A DNA stretch of 64,000 nucleotides. It comes from Spirosoma linguale DSM 74 (GTDB lineage Bacteria > Bacteroidota > Bacteroidia > Cytophagales > Spirosomataceae). The notes below the pieces were generated by a model, which worked only from the letters and a program-made list of their open reading frames with translations, ran no database searches and was not told where the DNA came from. The position numbers and the translations under genes were made by a program. Positions 53,952 to 61,847 of this stretch are shown here, piece by piece. The stretch lies in NCBI GenBank assembly GCA_000024525.1, contig CP001769.1, positions 2,528,001-2,592,000 of the forward strand. The letters run 5' to 3'. Each line of letters begins with the position of its first letter. Within the stretch, counting starts at the first letter, position 1.

Positions 53952-55178
53952 TTAATGAGTTATTCCCGTTACCATTTCTCTATATGAATTGAAAGCGTAG
54001 CCACTTGGATTGAAGTTGTTAGCACTATACCAGCCATTATAACTATTACCCCACCCCCAATTCATATGTAGGCCAGCATCGTAGCCTGTATATACTGCGA
54101 TCTTTTCCCCGGGTGTATTTGGGTCTGGCTGGCAAGAATAATAGTCCCAGTGCCTTACACCATCACAGACCCAAGCATGGGCATCTGAATTACTCTGACC
54201 TTTAAGAATGACAGGTCTACTATAATTTTGGAGTTCATACTTTACTGTAAAATAATTATAACTTGAAAGTGAGGGTGTAGAATAGCCAAAGTGACTAAAA
54301 GTCGTCGGGATATTGGACATGGGGGCAGAAGTACTGTTACATCCATAACTTGCATTTAGATTGGCTGAGGTACCCAAATCGCGCATTAAGACTGCAGTGG
54401 CGTTAGTTCCATAATTATTAGGCATGCTTGACCAGCTATAACTTGTAGGATATGCGTGGTACTTCATAATTTGGGCTACTGCAGTTGCTACACAACCAGT
54501 TAATACTTTCCCATTAGCAGTTGTCGTGCAACTCGAATAACTGAGTGCATCATTATATCCATCAGCTTGATCCCATGTGGTAGTCACAAATGGGCCAAAC
54601 TCAAAATACACTTTCATGGAAGGATCGGTATTACAATCGCCTTCCACTGTTATTAGCCGACCATTAGCAGATTGTTGTATAAATTTATCCCATACTCGTT
54701 TAACGGTTTTATCTTGCTCCTGATTATCCTTACGAATTCTCTTAATGACTTGTTCAACACTAGAAAACCAATCTTTGAGCCCTGAAGGCATATTGTCGGT
54801 TTTGTTGATAAAAGAATTATTATCGGAATAAGCTAAAACCGGTGTGATACGGTTGTCTCCAGAAACTATGATAAACCCTCCTTCTTTATAGGTAATAATG
54901 TAAAGTAGTGGATTCTTATATTCATCATATTTGGTGAACGTTTCTTGGGTTTTTTTAGATGATCCAATCCGTGCTTGACTATTCGCGTTTTTAGGATTAA
55001 CTATTTGTGGAGCTGTGCTAGCAACTTTATTAGCTTGTTCAATCGAAACTATATTCGAATTTATCTGAGGGTCTGAAGGCTCTAATAAGCCCGATTTCTG
55101 ACAAGATGCCACTCCGAATATAATTAAGAATGACAACAGACGTGTAAGTGTAAAATAATTTACATTCATAAGATTCAC
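53952..55178 (-). CDS. C10-family (streptopain-like) cysteine protease lipoprotein
   Basis: This 408-residue secreted cysteine protease has a lipobox at IIFGVASC (Cys26). A propeptide follows (Spi_C10-like, about 40-170, including YIITYKEGGFIIVSGDNRIT and PVLAYSDNNSF). The catalytic domain starts near TTTWDQADGYND. The nucleophile is Cys229 in LTGCVATAVAQIMKYHAYP and the catalytic His is His334 in SDAHAWVCDG. The HMNWGWGNSYNGWY motif supplies the conserved Trp and Asn. By family the propeptide blocks the site until cleavage. It is likely surface-bound and may digest extracellular protein or act on other cells. Confidence 0.92.
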   Translation of the reverse strand: MNLMNVNYFTLTRLLSFLIIFGVASCQKSGLLEPSDPQINSNIVSIEQANKVASTAPQIVNPKNANSQARIGSSKKTQETFTKYDEYKNPLLYIITYKEGGFIIVSGDNRITPVLAYSDNNSFINKTDNMPSGLKDWFSSVEQVIKRIRKDNQEQDKTVKRVWDKFIQQSANGRLITVEGDCNTDPSMKVYFEFGPFVTTTWDQADGYNDALSYSSCTTTANGKVLTGCVATAVAQIMKYHAYPTSYSWSSMPNNYGTNATAVLMRDLGTSANLNASYGCNSTSAPMSNIPTTFSHFGYSTPSLSSYNYFTVKYELQNYSRPVILKGQSNSDAHAWVCDGVRHWDYYSCQPDPNTPGEKIAVYTGYDAGLHMNWGWGNSYNGWYSANNFNPSGYAFNSYREMVTGITH

Positions 55179-56040: not shown

Positions 56041-56513
56041 TTCTTGGATGGTTCCAGAGCTAAGTTTCCAGCGTTTTACCCTCTCGAACAGTCAACAAAT
56101 CAATAGGCGTATGCTTGTCTAGATCAATCAGAATCGTACCATAGTTCCGTCCTTCCTTAAATGCAAAGTCATCAACGCCTTATCGCTTGGGCATTTCGAT
56201 CGCTGGTGGTGGGGTTTTACGGAGATATTCTGTACAGGCGAGGTACTGACGGACTAGCCTATTATGGTATGATATAAGCGAGTTCTCTGCTTGGCACCGG
56301 TCTGTAAGACTATGGCCTTGATTCGTTGATCCGCTCTGAGGAGTCTTCGAGCATAGGGTTTGCAGACTTTTGGGTAAATACTTTGCGAGGGCAGTCTGCC
56401 AGTGAGCAGAAAAACTTGCGTAGCCGCACCTGAATCTTGATACGTTCACCACTCATAGGTAGGTTAGCTAAGGTGCGTTGGCAGGAACTAAGCACTCGGT
56501 TGGTGGGCGTCAA
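56041..56513 (-). pseudogene. ISL3-family transposase fragment
   Basis: Minus-strand pieces in several frames match an ISL3-type transposase: the zinc-finger/HTH region SSCQRTLANLPMSGERIKIQ and VRLRKFFCSLADCPRKVF, then RLVRQYLACTEYLRKTPPP, and the DDE domain start [20 protein letters not shown] followed by [13 protein letters not shown]. After that a TAG stands where relatives have Trp. The N-terminus and most of the DDE domain are missing. It lies 56 bp after the LanB stop, at the point where further lanthipeptide genes might be expected. Confidence 0.72.
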
Positions 56514-56569: not shown

Positions 56570-59500
56570 TTATTTGTTTTGCGCTAGTTGGGATTTATAG
56601 AAACGAGCTAGATGATGATAAACAAGTACTTCGTAACTTCGTTGGTGTTGATCGAATAATCGGTTTATAAACAAGTGTATCAAACTCGCGATATAAGGTT
56701 GCAATTGATCGTTTGTAAAAATGGGAGACAGCATAAAGGGCTTAGCCCGGTGACTACGATTATAAAATATTAAATGGTGAAGTTCATCTGTCAGGCTTGG
56801 TGATTCTGCCTTAGTCATTAGCTTGATCAATATTGACTGGTTTTGCCGATAAAGATTAGCCAATTGTTTTTTTAAACTGGATTGTGCACCTTCTTGGTTA
56901 AATAAGGCCTGAAACCCCTTTAGACAAAAAGTACTTTTATCTACAAGATTTAAACCAAAATCTGTAAGATAGCGGTCAGTCCCTAAAAGTGCAGCCCCAA
57001 GTAGGGCTTGCTCAGCATCCTCGTTTTGACGTATGGTTAAAACAGCATCACTATCAGTCCAAAAAATCCACTCTGTGTTTTCTATACGTTCCACACCGTA
57101 GCGTTCCAGTTCTCGCTGGTATGTATCTAACTGAACTCGGTGTATTTCACCAGTATTGATCCAGACTTGCAACTGCCGTTGACAGGCCGAAAGAAGACTT
57201 GTATAGTTGTTCTTATCCGTTAAATGGAAACGAAATCGAAGATGGGGTTCAGGATCTTCGTATCGTATAAAAAACCAATGACTGATTGTACCCGCTCGAA
57301 TCGATGAGCGGGCAAGTTTGCCTAGTTTTATTAGCAATTGTTTACACACCTGCGGTCCGCCATAAACTTTAAGAAAAAGCCAATCCGAACCGGGTATAAA
57401 CGTTCGCTCTATAGAAAGGTTACTAATTTTGACGGGAGGGGATGCGAGAGAGGATCTGCGTTGGACAAAGGGTAGAATGACTTCATGAGTTAATGGGCCC
57501 TGAGGTCCATGCACACAACACTGATCGGGCGTTTGCAGCCATTCGAATACGTATAGGGGGGTTAATCGACGAAGCGTACTGACCAGTAGTTTTTGGCAGT
57601 CCGAATTATCCATATCCAAAAACAACTCCTGATCGGCCTGAATTAAGGCGACAAAGCGAGGCCATTGCCATAACTGGCGCCAGCGGGCCACATTTTCAGC
57701 ATCGGTTATTGAGTTGTCAATGTCTGCCTGATCGAGTCGCCACCGTGCTTCCTGCAAAATAATTTGGCGATACTCAACCCTTGGTAAGTAACGAAAGGTA
57801 CTCAAACTGCCCCAGGGCCACTGTACCATCAGCGGGCTTTCCTGCTGTTGGAGATCACAAAGAAATCGGTACGTGGGCAAGCCGGACAGGTAATTATGGG
57901 CCGTAGTAAGGCGGGGTACAATTTGCTTATTTAAGCGCCTGGAGCGGAGAATGACCCGCTCGCCGTTGGGTACGGAAACCCATAGATCAGTGATTGGTAT
58001 TTGCTTTTCGGGAGGTAAAGTCGACAAGCCCAGATAAGGAATCTCATACTCACTCAAGTGAGGACGTTGCACGACATTGCCCACAGCAATTGATGGTAAG
58101 TGCACAATTTCTGCATAAATGCGGTCAGTGTTTTGTTTTTGTAGTTGCTGATAAGCCCCTTGAACCTGTTTATTTAACTCTTTATCGGCCCTGCAGAAAC
58201 GACCCAGCAACGAAAAAGCAGAAGGGCCTGCCATAACTTTACTTCGAAATTTATAGCGACCTGTATCTAGGTCTTTTGACGAAGCTGCCAGAAAGTAGCC
58301 CAGTACATAATAGCTTTCCGGAATTGAGATGGGAGAATCGGACCAGCCAGTTAGGTCAGCATTGGTCAACTCAAGAACAGGCTTGCTCTGCGTTTGCCAA
58401 CTCTCGTATCGTTTTAGTAGCCATTTGTCCCAAGCAGGATTAAGCGGGGTCGATTCCTGCTGGTTTAAACCCAATAAGCTGGCTGCCATTAGCGTTTCCA
58501 TAATGGGTGTATCACCGGCTACGGGCTGGTTTCCGTAGCCAATGCCCGACTCGGCATCCAAGGCTACGGATAAAGGAATTTCCTGGTCTCCATACCGGGC
58601 GTAAAAAGCTTTTTTGAAAGAAACAAGGGCCTCTGCTGGGCGTAATGCCGCGTAAAGGCAAAATAGGTTTTGTAGACTTTTTTGAAGACCGCGCAGCAGG
58701 GAAGCGCTCAACTGATGCCCCTGACCAGTGAACAGGGTATCACCTTGTAGGAGGGGTATCGGGGGCAGCACGAGTCCAAACTGCTCTTGAAACAAGGTAC
58801 GAATGGCCGCATTCTTCGTTTTAAGACAGGCCCTTTGAGCAAGTAGGCTGCTTAGTTGATTGAGGCTTGCCCAAATGGTTTTTCCTTCTGGAAGATGTTG
58901 AAGAACCTCGTTGAGTCGATCGAGTGCATCAGCCCCGGTAACATTCAGTGACAACTCACTAACCAGAACCTGGTCAGCAATCAACTGATCAACAAAAGCC
59001 TGGCTTTCGCATGCCTCATACCCCAGTTGGGTTAATTCCTTTACGTAAGTCTGAAAGGGAGTTGACTGACGGGCCAGTCGAAGCACACAGCGTAAGGCGG
59101 GGTTGCCCTGTAGCTGGCTGGTAAAGAAACGGGCCGGGGAATCGGACGCATCAACTTCCAGATAGCGATATACCTTACCAACCGGGTACAGGCTCGTGTT
59201 CACCTGATACCTAAGGGAATGCCGAAGCGAAGAGTTCGTATTCAAATAGTTTAACAACTCACCCAGTATCGGTGCACTTAAGCGGTAATGACAGTTTACC
59301 TGACGGTCCAATACCTCCAAGCTGGTTACTGGTCCTACATGACCTAACCAACACCCAGCAAACAGGCCAAAGGGCGTCGACCGACTGCCCATTCGTAACA
59401 CATACTTGAGGACAGTTTGCCGTAATTTATCATTTCGTAACTGCGGATCGGATTGAATCTGTTCATAAAGCGTGGGCGAAGCTAAGAAGATGGCTTCGCC

Positions 59501-59611
59501 CACCACGGGTTGTTGGACAAAGGTCACTAAATCTCCCCTGTCGAGCAGATCCAGCAGTTGAGAGAAAGAAATTAAAGGCGTACGCAGGTAATAAAAAGCA
59601 AGCTGCTGCAT
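56570..59611 (-). CDS. Class I lanthipeptide dehydratase (LanB)
   Basis: This 1013-residue LanB-type enzyme dehydrates Ser/Thr of a precursor peptide using glutamyl-tRNA. The N-terminal glutamylation domain (about 1-700) carries the family hallmark RSTPFGLFAGCWLG near residue 78. The C-terminal SpaB_C elimination domain (about 740-1005) carries WLFLKVYGGPQVCKQLL and the conserved SHWFFIRYEDPEPHLRFRFH, which marks a complete, unsplit LanB. A short Thr-rich ORF ends 45 bp upstream and is the likely substrate gene. No LanC cyclase, protease or transporter lies in the window; downstream there is only an ISL3 relic, so the cluster may be truncated, or the partners may lie elsewhere. It is intact over its whole length. 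Confidence 0.9.
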   Translation of the reverse strand: MQQLAFYYLRTPLISFSQLLDLLDRGDLVTFVQQPVVGEAIFLASPTLYEQIQSDPQLRNDKLRQTVLKYVLRMGSRSTPFGLFAGCWLGHVGPVTSLEVLDRQVNCHYRLSAPILGELLNYLNTNSSLRHSLRYQVNTSLYPVGKVYRYLEVDASDSPARFFTSQLQGNPALRCVLRLARQSTPFQTYVKELTQLGYEACESQAFVDQLIADQVLVSELSLNVTGADALDRLNEVLQHLPEGKTIWASLNQLSSLLAQRACLKTKNAAIRTLFQEQFGLVLPPIPLLQGDTLFTGQGHQLSASLLRGLQKSLQNLFCLYAALRPAEALVSFKKAFYARYGDQEIPLSVALDAESGIGYGNQPVAGDTPIMETLMAASLLGLNQQESTPLNPAWDKWLLKRYESWQTQSKPVLELTNADLTGWSDSPISIPESYYVLGYFLAASSKDLDTGRYKFRSKVMAGPSAFSLLGRFCRADKELNKQVQGAYQQLQKQNTDRIYAEIVHLPSIAVGNVVQRPHLSEYEIPYLGLSTLPPEKQIPITDLWVSVPNGERVILRSRRLNKQIVPRLTTAHNYLSGLPTYRFLCDLQQQESPLMVQWPWGSLSTFRYLPRVEYRQIILQEARWRLDQADIDNSITDAENVARWRQLWQWPRFVALIQADQELFLDMDNSDCQKLLVSTLRRLTPLYVFEWLQTPDQCCVHGPQGPLTHEVILPFVQRRSSLASPPVKISNLSIERTFIPGSDWLFLKVYGGPQVCKQLLIKLGKLARSSIRAGTISHWFFIRYEDPEPHLRFRFHLTDKNNYTSLLSACQRQLQVWINTGEIHRVQLDTYQRELERYGVERIENTEWIFWTDSDAVLTIRQNEDAEQALLGAALLGTDRYLTDFGLNLVDKSTFCLKGFQALFNQEGAQSSLKKQLANLYRQNQSILIKLMTKAESPSLTDELHHLIFYNRSHRAKPFMLSPIFTNDQLQPYIASLIHLFINRLFDQHQRSYEVLVYHHLARFYKSQLAQNK

Positions 59612-59656
59612 ACCGGTAAAGTCGCCAGAGTAAGAATAACAGATGTGGTTAATGAG

Positions 59657-59812
59657 TTAGGTCTGATTTAGGCCATTAAGGCCGGTACTTGTTAACGTCG
59701 TACAGACATCGGTTGTAATGGTTTGATTTCCTTTCCCCTGGTGGAGTTGTTGAGATAGATGAACTTGCAGACGTACTTTCTGATACGTTAATCGTTTAGC
59801 TACGGGTTTCAT
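59657..59812 (-). CDS. Candidate class I lanthipeptide precursor peptide
   Basis: This 51-residue ORF starts ATG at 59812 and stops TAA at 59657, 45 bp before LanB on the same strand. The N-terminal half is a charged, leader-like stretch (MKPVAKRLTYQKVRLQVHLS). It is followed by a QGKGNQ spacer and a core rich in Thr with one Cys, TITTDVCTTLTSTGLNG, ending LNQT. The core has eight Thr (T31, T33, T34, T38, T39, T41, T43, T51), one Ser (S42) and Cys37. One Cys would allow one (methyl)lanthionine ring; the remaining residues could stay dehydrated. Size, position, leader style and composition all fit a LanB substrate. Cleavage site unknown. No similarity search was possible. Confidence 0.65.
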   Translation of the reverse strand: MKPVAKRLTYQKVRLQVHLSQQLHQGKGNQTITTDVCTTLTSTGLNGLNQT

Positions 59813-59947
59813 GAACAATAAAGAGGAAGGAGAACGTTTATGGTGGTTTATTAAGTCCTAAAGCTATTTGTCTTGGTGGCAAAACCTTTGTTTTTTCGAC
59901 TAAAGTGCAGCCAGAATAGACAGAAAAGCGTTCTGCATAGATAAAGC

Positions 59948-60718
59948 TTATAGCAGAACGGAAATATGTTTTTTTAATTCTTCCCGATAAAGCGGCCCCA
60001 TTGCAAGCTGCTTCCCATTGGTTAGCGTGATGGTGTTGCCATCGATAAGTCGAATGGCCGACAAGAGGACAATGAACGAGCGGTGGACACGCACGAATTG
60101 TGGGGGAGCAAACAACTTCTCGGCTTTGCCCAAATTCATATGAGTGACAATGACTTGATGCTGCAGGTGAACTTTCACGTAGTCCTTCAGGCCTTCAACG
60201 TAAAGAATTTCTTGGTATGGTATTTGAAGCAGTCGCTTTTCCTCTCGTAACCAGATGGAGTTTGATTCGGGCAGGGGAACCCCATCGGTTCGAGGCTGAC
60301 CAGACGCCGGGCTTTCTTCGATGGGGTACCAACCCACGGGTGGAGAGGCCGGTTGCCGTTTTTCCCGAAACTTAACGATAGCTCTGATAAACCGATCGAA
60401 GGCAATGGGCTTAACCAGATAGTCCAGTACCGAAAATTCGTAACTGGTCAGGGCGTATTGGGGATAGGCCGTTGTCAGAATAATCTCCGGGCGTGGTGTT
60501 AGTGGCAGCTTCATGAGGTCTAAACCCGTCATTTCGGGCATCTGTATATCCAGAAACAACAGATCAGGCTTTAGATCCTGAATGGCCTGCAAGCCCTGGA
60601 TGGCGTTTGAACAACTGGCCACGCATTGCAGATCCGGCAGCTGGCTGACAAAGGTCTCGATGAGATCCCTGGCGGGGGGCTCATCATCCAGGATAATGAC
60701 GCGATAAGTCGGTTTCAT
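59948..60718 (-). CDS. LytTR-family response regulator
   Basis: This 256-residue response regulator has a receiver domain with VIILDDEPPARDL and phosphoacceptor Asp57 in LLFLDIQMPEMTGLDL. The conserved Lys follows in SVLDYLVKPIAFDRFI. The C-terminal LytTR DNA-binding domain contains IPYQEILYVEGLKDYVKVHL, FVRVHRSFIVLLSAIRLIDG and GPLYREELKKH. Its start overlaps the 3' end of the kinase gene by 35 nt, so they are translated together. The lanthipeptide precursor starts 135 bp downstream on the same strand; the pair may control the lanthipeptide genes, as LytTR systems do for other bacterial peptides. Confidence 0.93.
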   Translation of the reverse strand: MKPTYRVIILDDEPPARDLIETFVSQLPDLQCVASCSNAIQGLQAIQDLKPDLLFLDIQMPEMTGLDLMKLPLTPRPEIILTTAYPQYALTSYEFSVLDYLVKPIAFDRFIRAIVKFREKRQPASPPVGWYPIEESPASGQPRTDGVPLPESNSIWLREEKRLLQIPYQEILYVEGLKDYVKVHLQHQVIVTHMNLGKAEKLFAPPQFVRVHRSFIVLLSAIRLIDGNTITLTNGKQLAMGPLYREELKKHISVLL

Positions 60719-61847
60719 GAAGATGGAGAGATAGATGGACAGAAAACTGATCAGGGGTTGACACTATATCCAGCGTATGCAAATTTGGATAATAAAAAGC
60801 GAGTCTCTTTTGCACGTTGAGCAGGCCAATACCAGCTGGCCCAGCAGCTTTTCGTTCAGGTCGGCTATTTTCTACCGACAAGGTAACGGCTGCCGGCTGG
60901 ATATGGAGCTGGATGTCGACCCAGGAAGCCTGCGCCGTGGACTGGATACCATGTTTGAAGGCATTTTCGATAAAGCTGATAAACAGAAGCGGAGGCACCT
61001 GCTGATTGGTTGACTCTCCGGTTACGGAAAAGCGAATGGAAACATGGTCATCATGCCGAATTCGTTCCAGATCTACATAGCTGGTCAGAAAGGCAATCTC
61101 TTTACTGAGCAGGACCCGTTCTTCGTTGGTTTCGTAGAGGGTATAGCGCATCAGGTCCGAGAGCTTAAGGATCGAGCCAGCCACCCGCTCCGGCGAACGA
61201 ATGGCAAACGAATAGATATTGTTGAGCGTATTAAACAGGAAGTGAGGATTGACCTGAGCTTTAAGGAAATCAAATTCCAATCGCAGATTTTCCTTTTCCA
61301 GCTCAACACGTTGCAGCTGACTGGTGAATAAGTCTTTAAACACCTTTAGTCCAATCGCATAGAGCAAATAATTGTACACCAGCGAAAAGGAAAACAGCCA
61401 GACGATGATGGCATCAAAGGGCGCCAGCCAGAAGGGCAGCTGCTGGATATGGTCTGCGTGGGCCGCATAAAAGCGGGGGAGTTTGGTAAGCGGAAAAAGC
61501 GCGTAAACGAGACGAAAATGAGCCAGGACTAATTCAGCGGCCACCAGGTGTACGCCCAATATGGCCAGCAGAAAATAATTGAGCTTAAAGCGGAGGAGTA
61601 AATTTTGGTGAATTTGCCACGTAATAAGCCAGTAGATGCCGATAATTAACGTACTGACAAATGCTGTTGACGACAAGCTATAGAGTAGGGCTGTTTGTGG
61701 AGAGGTATCGGGTATGGATGTAGCGATAAATCGAAAGCCTCGATAAACCAGCAGGATGGCCGTTATCCACAATAACGCATGACGAATCAGACGAAAACGG
61801 ATAGCAGGGCTAACCAGCACCTGCAAAAAAAACAGTTTATAGCCCAT
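60684..61847 (-). CDS. LytS-type membrane sensor histidine kinase
   Basis: This 387-residue membrane kinase has several N-terminal helices (for example HALLWITAILLVYRGFRFIA, TAFVSTLIIGIYWLITWQIH, YFLLAILGVHLVAAELVLAH, FDAIIVWLFSFSLVYNYLLY). A His_kinase domain follows with the phosphoacceptor region KAQVNPHFLFNTLNNIYSFA, then an ATPase with FISFIENAFKHG and GIGLLNVQKRLAFYYPN. There is no large extracytoplasmic domain, so the signal is probably membrane-associated. It is intact, unlike the decayed kinase at the left edge, and is coupled by overlap to its regulator. Confidence 0.93.
   Translation of the reverse strand: MGYKLFFLQVLVSPAIRFRLIRHALLWITAILLVYRGFRFIATSIPDTSPQTALLYSLSSTAFVSTLIIGIYWLITWQIHQNLLLRFKLNYFLLAILGVHLVAAELVLAHFRLVYALFPLTKLPRFYAAHADHIQQLPFWLAPFDAIIVWLFSFSLVYNYLLYAIGLKVFKDLFTSQLQRVELEKENLRLEFDFLKAQVNPHFLFNTLNNIYSFAIRSPERVAGSILKLSDLMRYTLYETNEERVLLSKEIAFLTSYVDLERIRHDDHVSIRFSVTGESTNQQVPPLLFISFIENAFKHGIQSTAQASWVDIQLHIQPAAVTLSVENSRPERKAAGPAGIGLLNVQKRLAFYYPNLHTLDIVSTPDQFSVHLSLHLHETDLSRHYPG

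Follow-up and report, generated by a model that had tools for sequence, protein, structure and literature searches.

In class I lanthipeptide systems (LanA-LanB-LanC), a short precursor is encoded together with a LanB dehydratase and a LanC cyclase. Thiopeptide and goadsporin pathways contain LanB and yield products that are not lanthipeptides, and agr and ComDE are LytTR-regulated peptide systems. The locus described here shares features with all three. As in a class I cluster, a full-length LanB with both domains is preceded closely by a short precursor gene, and the core of this precursor (type A, below) contains Ser/Thr and Cys; in contrast to a class I cluster, no LanC was found near LanB, no transporter or protease holds a fixed place, and the type-A leader is matched by no model of a recognised leader family. 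As in agr and ComDE, a histidine kinase (HK) and an adjacent LytTR response regulator (RR) adjoin a short peptide gene, and paired repeats about two helical turns apart stand ahead of the promoter; however, the modifying enzyme is a LanB, and a dedicated exporter or processing protease was not seen. The use of a dehydratase without a LanC cyclase recalls thiopeptide and goadsporin pathways, from which the locus differs in having a single full-length LanB and no extra modifying enzyme that recurs across most loci.

The window (the whole 64-kb stretch of DNA analysed) carries the cassette on its minus strand, in the order histidine kinase, LytTR response regulator, precursor, LanB:

60684..61847, minus strand: histidine kinase with a PF06580 domain and some four hydrophobic segments
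59948..60718, minus strand: response regulator with a receiver and a LytTR DNA-binding domain
59896..59942, minus strand: three RTCKA direct repeats with an exact 21-bp period, proposed LytTR sites
59859..59866, minus strand: TAGCTTTA, proposed -7 element, 34 nt past the start of the last box
59657..59812, minus strand: precursor peptide gene, 51 aa from ATG, identified by its ORF, homologues, profile and codon positions
precursor residues 8-15, minus strand: proposed leader motif LTYQKVRL
59681..59725, minus strand: proposed core QTITTDVCTTLTSTG, residues 30-44, containing one Cys, seven Thr and one Ser, from the alignment of 4 homologues, with a putative leader/core boundary
56570..59611, minus strand: LanB, 1013 aa, with glutamylation and elimination domains

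We interpret these genes as a four-gene, regulator-switched RiPP cassette in which LanB would dehydrate Thr/Ser and rings number at most one and are not obligatory (probability about 0.72). Genes, conservation and promoter anatomy all point to such a regulated dehydratase. This interpretation is favoured because the type-A precursor occurs solely beside its LanB, with coding-type substitution, and because of the HK/RR loci without LanC, the LanB-bearing Spirosoma genomes in which LanC was not found, the grouping of the LanBs in trees, the upstream repeats, the Cys-free relatives and the presence, apart from D121, of the tabulated NisB-type catalytic residues in the window LanB. Counting against it are a changed residue at the position of NisB D121, the LanCs of the window's own genome, which could act in trans, a weak LanC-like ORF in G033, the lack of a fixed exporter or protease, the Dyadobacter outliers, precursors without repeats, and the LanCs near 7 of 49 Spirosoma LanBs. 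Stimulation of the kinase would lead to phosphorylation of the regulator, which would bind the 21-bp-spaced repeats and switch on precursor and LanB. LanB would then bind the basic leader in the LTYQKVRL region and, with glutamyl-tRNA, turn several Thr/Ser of QTITTDVCTTLTSTG into dehydrobutyrine/dehydroalanine. Even without a dedicated cyclase, the lone Cys may join Thr34 in a four-residue ring (T-D-V-C), or it may stay free; a ring is not what defines the family. The product could be a peptide signal or an antimicrobial made on demand. If this is true, these LanBs would be stand-alone dehydratases in a regulated peptide system found in six genera, outside thioether chemistry. More cassettes can be sought by means of the leader motif, the 21-bp repeats and the gene order of the cassette.

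The original prediction placed a short ORF 45 bp upstream of a full-length LanB on the same strand, and the coordinates bear this out (45 bp from the precursor end to the LanB start at 59611; the ORF would have 53 aa if an upstream TTG were used as start). When the fetched loci were searched with the 51-mer (tblastn), homologues were obtained in G032, G008 and G033 (S. terrae), with E-values of 1e-12, 1e-11 and 4e-5. In these other Spirosoma genomes the type-A homologues precede the three LanBs closest to the window LanB (57, 55 and 45% identical), in the same relative position, 55, 57 and 47 bp from LanB when measured from the aligned start. The absence of a homologous ORF beside related LanBs had been named in advance as the refuting outcome; this search was run and the homologues are present. 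Their shared position, next to the nearest LanBs of three further genomes, puts the ORF beyond chance. Homologues and alignment likewise agree with the predicted single-Cys, Thr-rich precursor beside LanB and show it to be conserved. The Cys and the T-D-x-C spacing are conserved in all four peptides, the shared single-Cys motif is TTDxCT, and the residues invariant in the alignment of four include L8, Y10, K12, V13, R14, T33, T34, D35, C37, T38, T41, T43 and G44. Besides its single Cys, TITTDVCTTLTSTG contains seven Thr and one Ser. The core had been credited with eight Thr; TITTDVCTTLTSTGLNG has seven, plus one Ser.

Short ORFs that precede the 49 Spirosoma LanBs were clustered; type A accounted for 4 loci, a second type (type B, with an RLxLKKERIVCLT-like leader) for 21, two more types for 5 and 4, and GG-leader precursors for 3. 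Clustering alone was rejected as proof of coding, since ORFs on the opposite strand cluster too (up to 13 loci), as do ORFs in other frames; by our reading the opposite-strand clusters are antisense shadows of coding genes. At E 0.001 type B has matches, some of them partial, in 39 of the 222 genomes of the family, spread over 6 of its 36 genera. Nineteen further loci (17 from other genera and two from Spirosoma genomes G015 and G018) contained LanB in 18 cases, and a receiver-like gene followed the precursor position in 18, L228 being the exception; L227 has RR, HK, type-B precursor and receiver-like gene with no LanB match in the stretch, and no precursor ORF was found in L231. A shared leader for types A and B was considered and dropped: the profile comparison was weak (probability 19) and homology is not claimed. 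Between the type-B precursor and LanB lies a stand-alone receiver-like protein of ~120 aa (L051, L045, L047, L050, L058 and most of L213-L231), for which type-A cassettes have no room. It matches the receivers of the regulators in profile comparison (probability 98.1), and the acidic pair, phospho-Asp and Lys are missing in most or all of nine aligned.

In the window cassette the receiver of the response regulator keeps its acidic pair, phospho-Asp and Lys. The kinase ORF overlaps the regulator ORF, both upstream of the precursor on the same strand, and has no Pfam domain besides PF06580 above cut-off. The RTCKA boxes start at 59942, 59921 and 59900; three such boxes at 21-bp steps lie between the regulator stop and the precursor in all four type-A loci, and the triple pattern occurs once in the 64-kb window against 0.01 expected. 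The kinase, the LytTR regulator and the repeats had no place in the original prediction of a lanthipeptide locus. Repeats were counted in 22 of 25 upstream regions, the near-copies L055, L067 and L070 having been removed. A 21-bp pair was found upstream of 21 of these 22 non-redundant type-A/B precursors (control, 0.9% of 1420 tiles) and a 22-bp pair upstream of 10; other spacings from 11 to 35 bp gave 0-2. In a later set of 18 type-B precursors, 21- or 22-bp pairs were present in 11 and absent in 7, and in two further precursor groups RTCKA repeats were not found (0/6 loci). The Bacteroidota -7 consensus is TAnnTTTG. A TAnnTT(T/C)G or TAnnTTTA element, a loose pattern with no separate control, follows the repeats in 20 of 21 upstream regions. 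Measured from where the last box in the 21-bp series begins, the distance is 34-35 nt in 11 of them and 56-57 nt in nine; by eye, these nine have an extra box 22 bp on.

This arrangement raises an extension compatible with the regulated-dehydratase cassette, namely that the peptide, once modified, is exported and then detected by the neighbouring kinase, making the cassette autoinducing. A kinase without a recognised sensor domain, a LytTR regulator and a short peptide gene with upstream repeats are consistent with such a pheromone, and the layout is like that of agr and ComDE. However, the cassette has no exporter or protease that recurs at a fixed place. We hold a pheromone role, attractive but unproven, as a tentative possibility with the odds somewhat against it. 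If the peptides served as signals, this would amount to a quorum system of Bacteroidota based on modified peptides. A broader proposal, somewhat less probable still, is a Bacteroidota signalling system spanning the family, in which a dehydroamino-acid peptide made by LanB, not a lanthipeptide, would be the ligand of its own kinase/LytTR pair, with the type-B receiver-like protein, its phosphorylation residues lost, coupling both.

Export was surveyed in 50 loci chosen for HK and RR (near-copies L055, L070 and L086, together with L044 and L049, having been dropped). Neither an exporter nor a protease was found at a fixed place across them, C39-type ABC ORFs were present in nine at varying places, and no further modifying enzyme recurs in most of the 50. 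In the stretch around the window cassette, no exporter or processing enzyme was seen. At L043 and L053, HK-RR-precursor-LanB cassettes are followed by a radical-SAM-like protein, suggesting extra modification. The S. terrae type-A cassette (L041:6467-18939, L179) extends further: it includes another LanB, ORFs that by eye are ATP-grasp-like and SPASM-like, an ABC transporter of C39 type and a weak LanC-like ORF. A small divergent HTH-like regulator (XRE-type by eye) lies upstream of the cassette in 16 of the 50 loci, in L045 ~3 kb from LanB.

No LanC was found near the window LanB (PF05147 search). Across the 36 genus genomes PF05147 identified LanC in 17 and PF04738 identified LanB in 31, a frequency with which the original remark that Bacteroidota class I lanthipeptides are few is a misfit as far as LanB genes are concerned; comparison of the two lists gave no LanC match in 16 of the 31 LanB-bearing Spirosoma genomes. 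LanC was not found anywhere in G008 (99% complete, one contig) or G032 (94% complete), two of the three other type-A genomes, both carrying the type-A cassette. The prediction of a lanthipeptide locus is only partly borne out: LanB and precursor are there, and no LanC was found, nearby or, in these two genomes with the same cassette, anywhere. The tblastn screen can detect LanC, having placed one no more than 6 kb from 36 of the 58 LanBs of named records. A LanC hidden nearby was sought with PF05147 across the 36 genomes and rejected; three low-scoring matches (20-41 bits; L180, L181 and L182) come from ORFs that in the alignment lack the tryptophan-cysteine and CHG zinc-ligand motifs and adjoin a sister LanB subclade. 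The motifs are present in six of seven other genus LanCs (not LanC7) and absent from the weak L179 ORF. L180:12239-13318, L181:6664-7725 and L182:5320-6402 are possible dead LanCs. At the G033 type-A locus, a weak LanC-like ORF (28 bits) lies ~11 kb off, with a C39-type ABC gene nearby.

One alternative is an ordinary class I lanthipeptide, its single Cys being cyclised by a LanC from another part of the genome. Two LanCs are present in the window's own genome, and alignment identified the zinc-ligand motifs in both (WCYG/WCHG plus CHG); the T-D-x-C spacing, kept in all four type-A peptides, is compatible with one ring. However, both of these LanCs belong to other loci, each having its own LanB or LanB-like gene, the same cassette exists in the two genomes where LanC was not found, and Cys-free precursors occur in the wider family; we consider the alternative unlikely. 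After the leader motif, 39 type-B peptides (21 + 18, near-copies included) have no Cys in 19 cases, one in 19 and two in one, so that, in contrast to class I cores, at most one Cys is present in 38 of 39; nine of the 39 have no Cys whatever. (The script motif missed five of the 39 type-B and one of the four type-A peptides, which were counted by hand.) True lantibiotics require a Cys, and the use of Cys-free precursors by related cassettes does not suit the originally predicted ordinary lanthipeptide locus. One tested type-B leader resembles the L1a leader of class I systems, below cut-off (E 0.011; NCBIfam NF038153/NF038158 leaders).

The distribution of neighbouring genes favours the regulated-dehydratase reading. 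The distance limits for scoring a neighbour of LanB were 3.5 kb for HK, 4 kb for RR and 6 kb for LanC. By these limits, HK and RR without LanC were found at 34 of the 49 LanB loci of Spirosoma and at 5 of the 58 named-record LanBs, four of these five being from Dyadobacter or Rudanella. The other Spirosoma loci had LanC only (5), both (2) or neither (8), so that LanC is near 7 of the 49 and HK and RR together are near 36. Excluded were LanB rows with <850 query residues covered or with stops, and the duplicates L087, L088 and L109; LanBs G006:C41 and G027:C14, the split LanBs of G011 and G032 C3, and short or divergent LanB-like genes were left out as loci, and G000's was fetched solely in L044. 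In a FastTree of 107 LanBs, a 45-row side (support 99) holds 38 of the 39 HK/RR rows without LanC, the remainder being five scored 'neither' and two scored 'LanC near': L042_1, where LanC belongs to an adjoining opposite-strand cluster, and L078, with a motif-less LanC-like ORF. L068 was scored 'neither' despite an upstream RR, and loci at contig ends may miss neighbours. In a quick IQ-TREE run on 58 chosen rows, 29 of the 31 group members share a 30-row branch (98) with L068, and the main group excludes two Dyadobacter rows that have HK/RR. Neither run is a careful tree, and one relatives step kept the best 80 of 333. The window LanB falls within this group of LanBs from HK/RR cassettes mostly without LanC.

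Both LanB domains are full (Lant_dehydr_N, E 3.3e-141; Lant_dehydr_C, E 3.8e-55), and the nearest solved structures by sequence are LanB-type dehydratases, including NisB (4wd9). For the catalytic residues the NisB list and roles were used, with positions counted along the alignment to NisB. Among 49 Spirosoma LanBs, equivalents of R83, R87, T89, E823 and H961 are present in all, and those of R784, R786 and R826 in 48; at the K79 position 40 have Lys and 8 have Arg. The equivalent of D121, a residue important for glutamylation, is Asp in 45; the window LanB and L056 have Ser here, and those of G032 and G008 have Asn. Ser/Asn at this position could alter LanB activity and is the main chemical doubt.

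A LanB that solely adds glutamate, or is inactive, in a decaying cassette would account for Ser/Asn at the D121 position in three of the four type-A LanBs, for the S. telluris kinase appearing as two ORFs (L039:4662-5827) and for a possible ISL3-type transposase zinc-ribbon remnant downstream (3') of LanB (window 56310-56513; E 0.011, under the cut-off). Against decay, all four type-A LanBs have their full length (identity of the other three, 45-57%), all tabulated NisB-type catalytic residues save D121 are kept in the window LanB, and the precursor is under coding constraint. We regard decay as quite improbable.

The proposed search against precursor families was run, and no NCBIfam or Pfam model matched the 51-mer; in a leader-family test two type-A peptides had no NCBIfam match and three GG-leader control peptides exceeded the cut-off. 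A profile built from the four type-A sequences, and therefore recovering its own members, scored the four at E 1e-25 to 3e-28 across the 36 genus genomes, the next match being at 0.05; in 222 family genomes (E 0.001) it recovered the four and no fifth. In three pairwise comparisons among the window, G032 and G008, differences at codon positions 1/2/3 were 20/14/33 (51 codons), 22/12/33 (49) and 11/3/24 (49), most substitutions in the type-A precursor genes thus being at third positions. A chance ORF or untranslated leader, with which the missing family match would agree, is ruled out to near certainty by the positional homologues in four genomes, the protein-level conservation and profile result, and the third-position bias. 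On this sequence evidence ORF 59657-59812 is confirmed as a genuine gene and is likely the substrate gene of the neighbouring full-length LanB. Elsewhere in the window, 53952-55178 encodes a C10-family peptidase with a Spi inhibitor-like propeptide.
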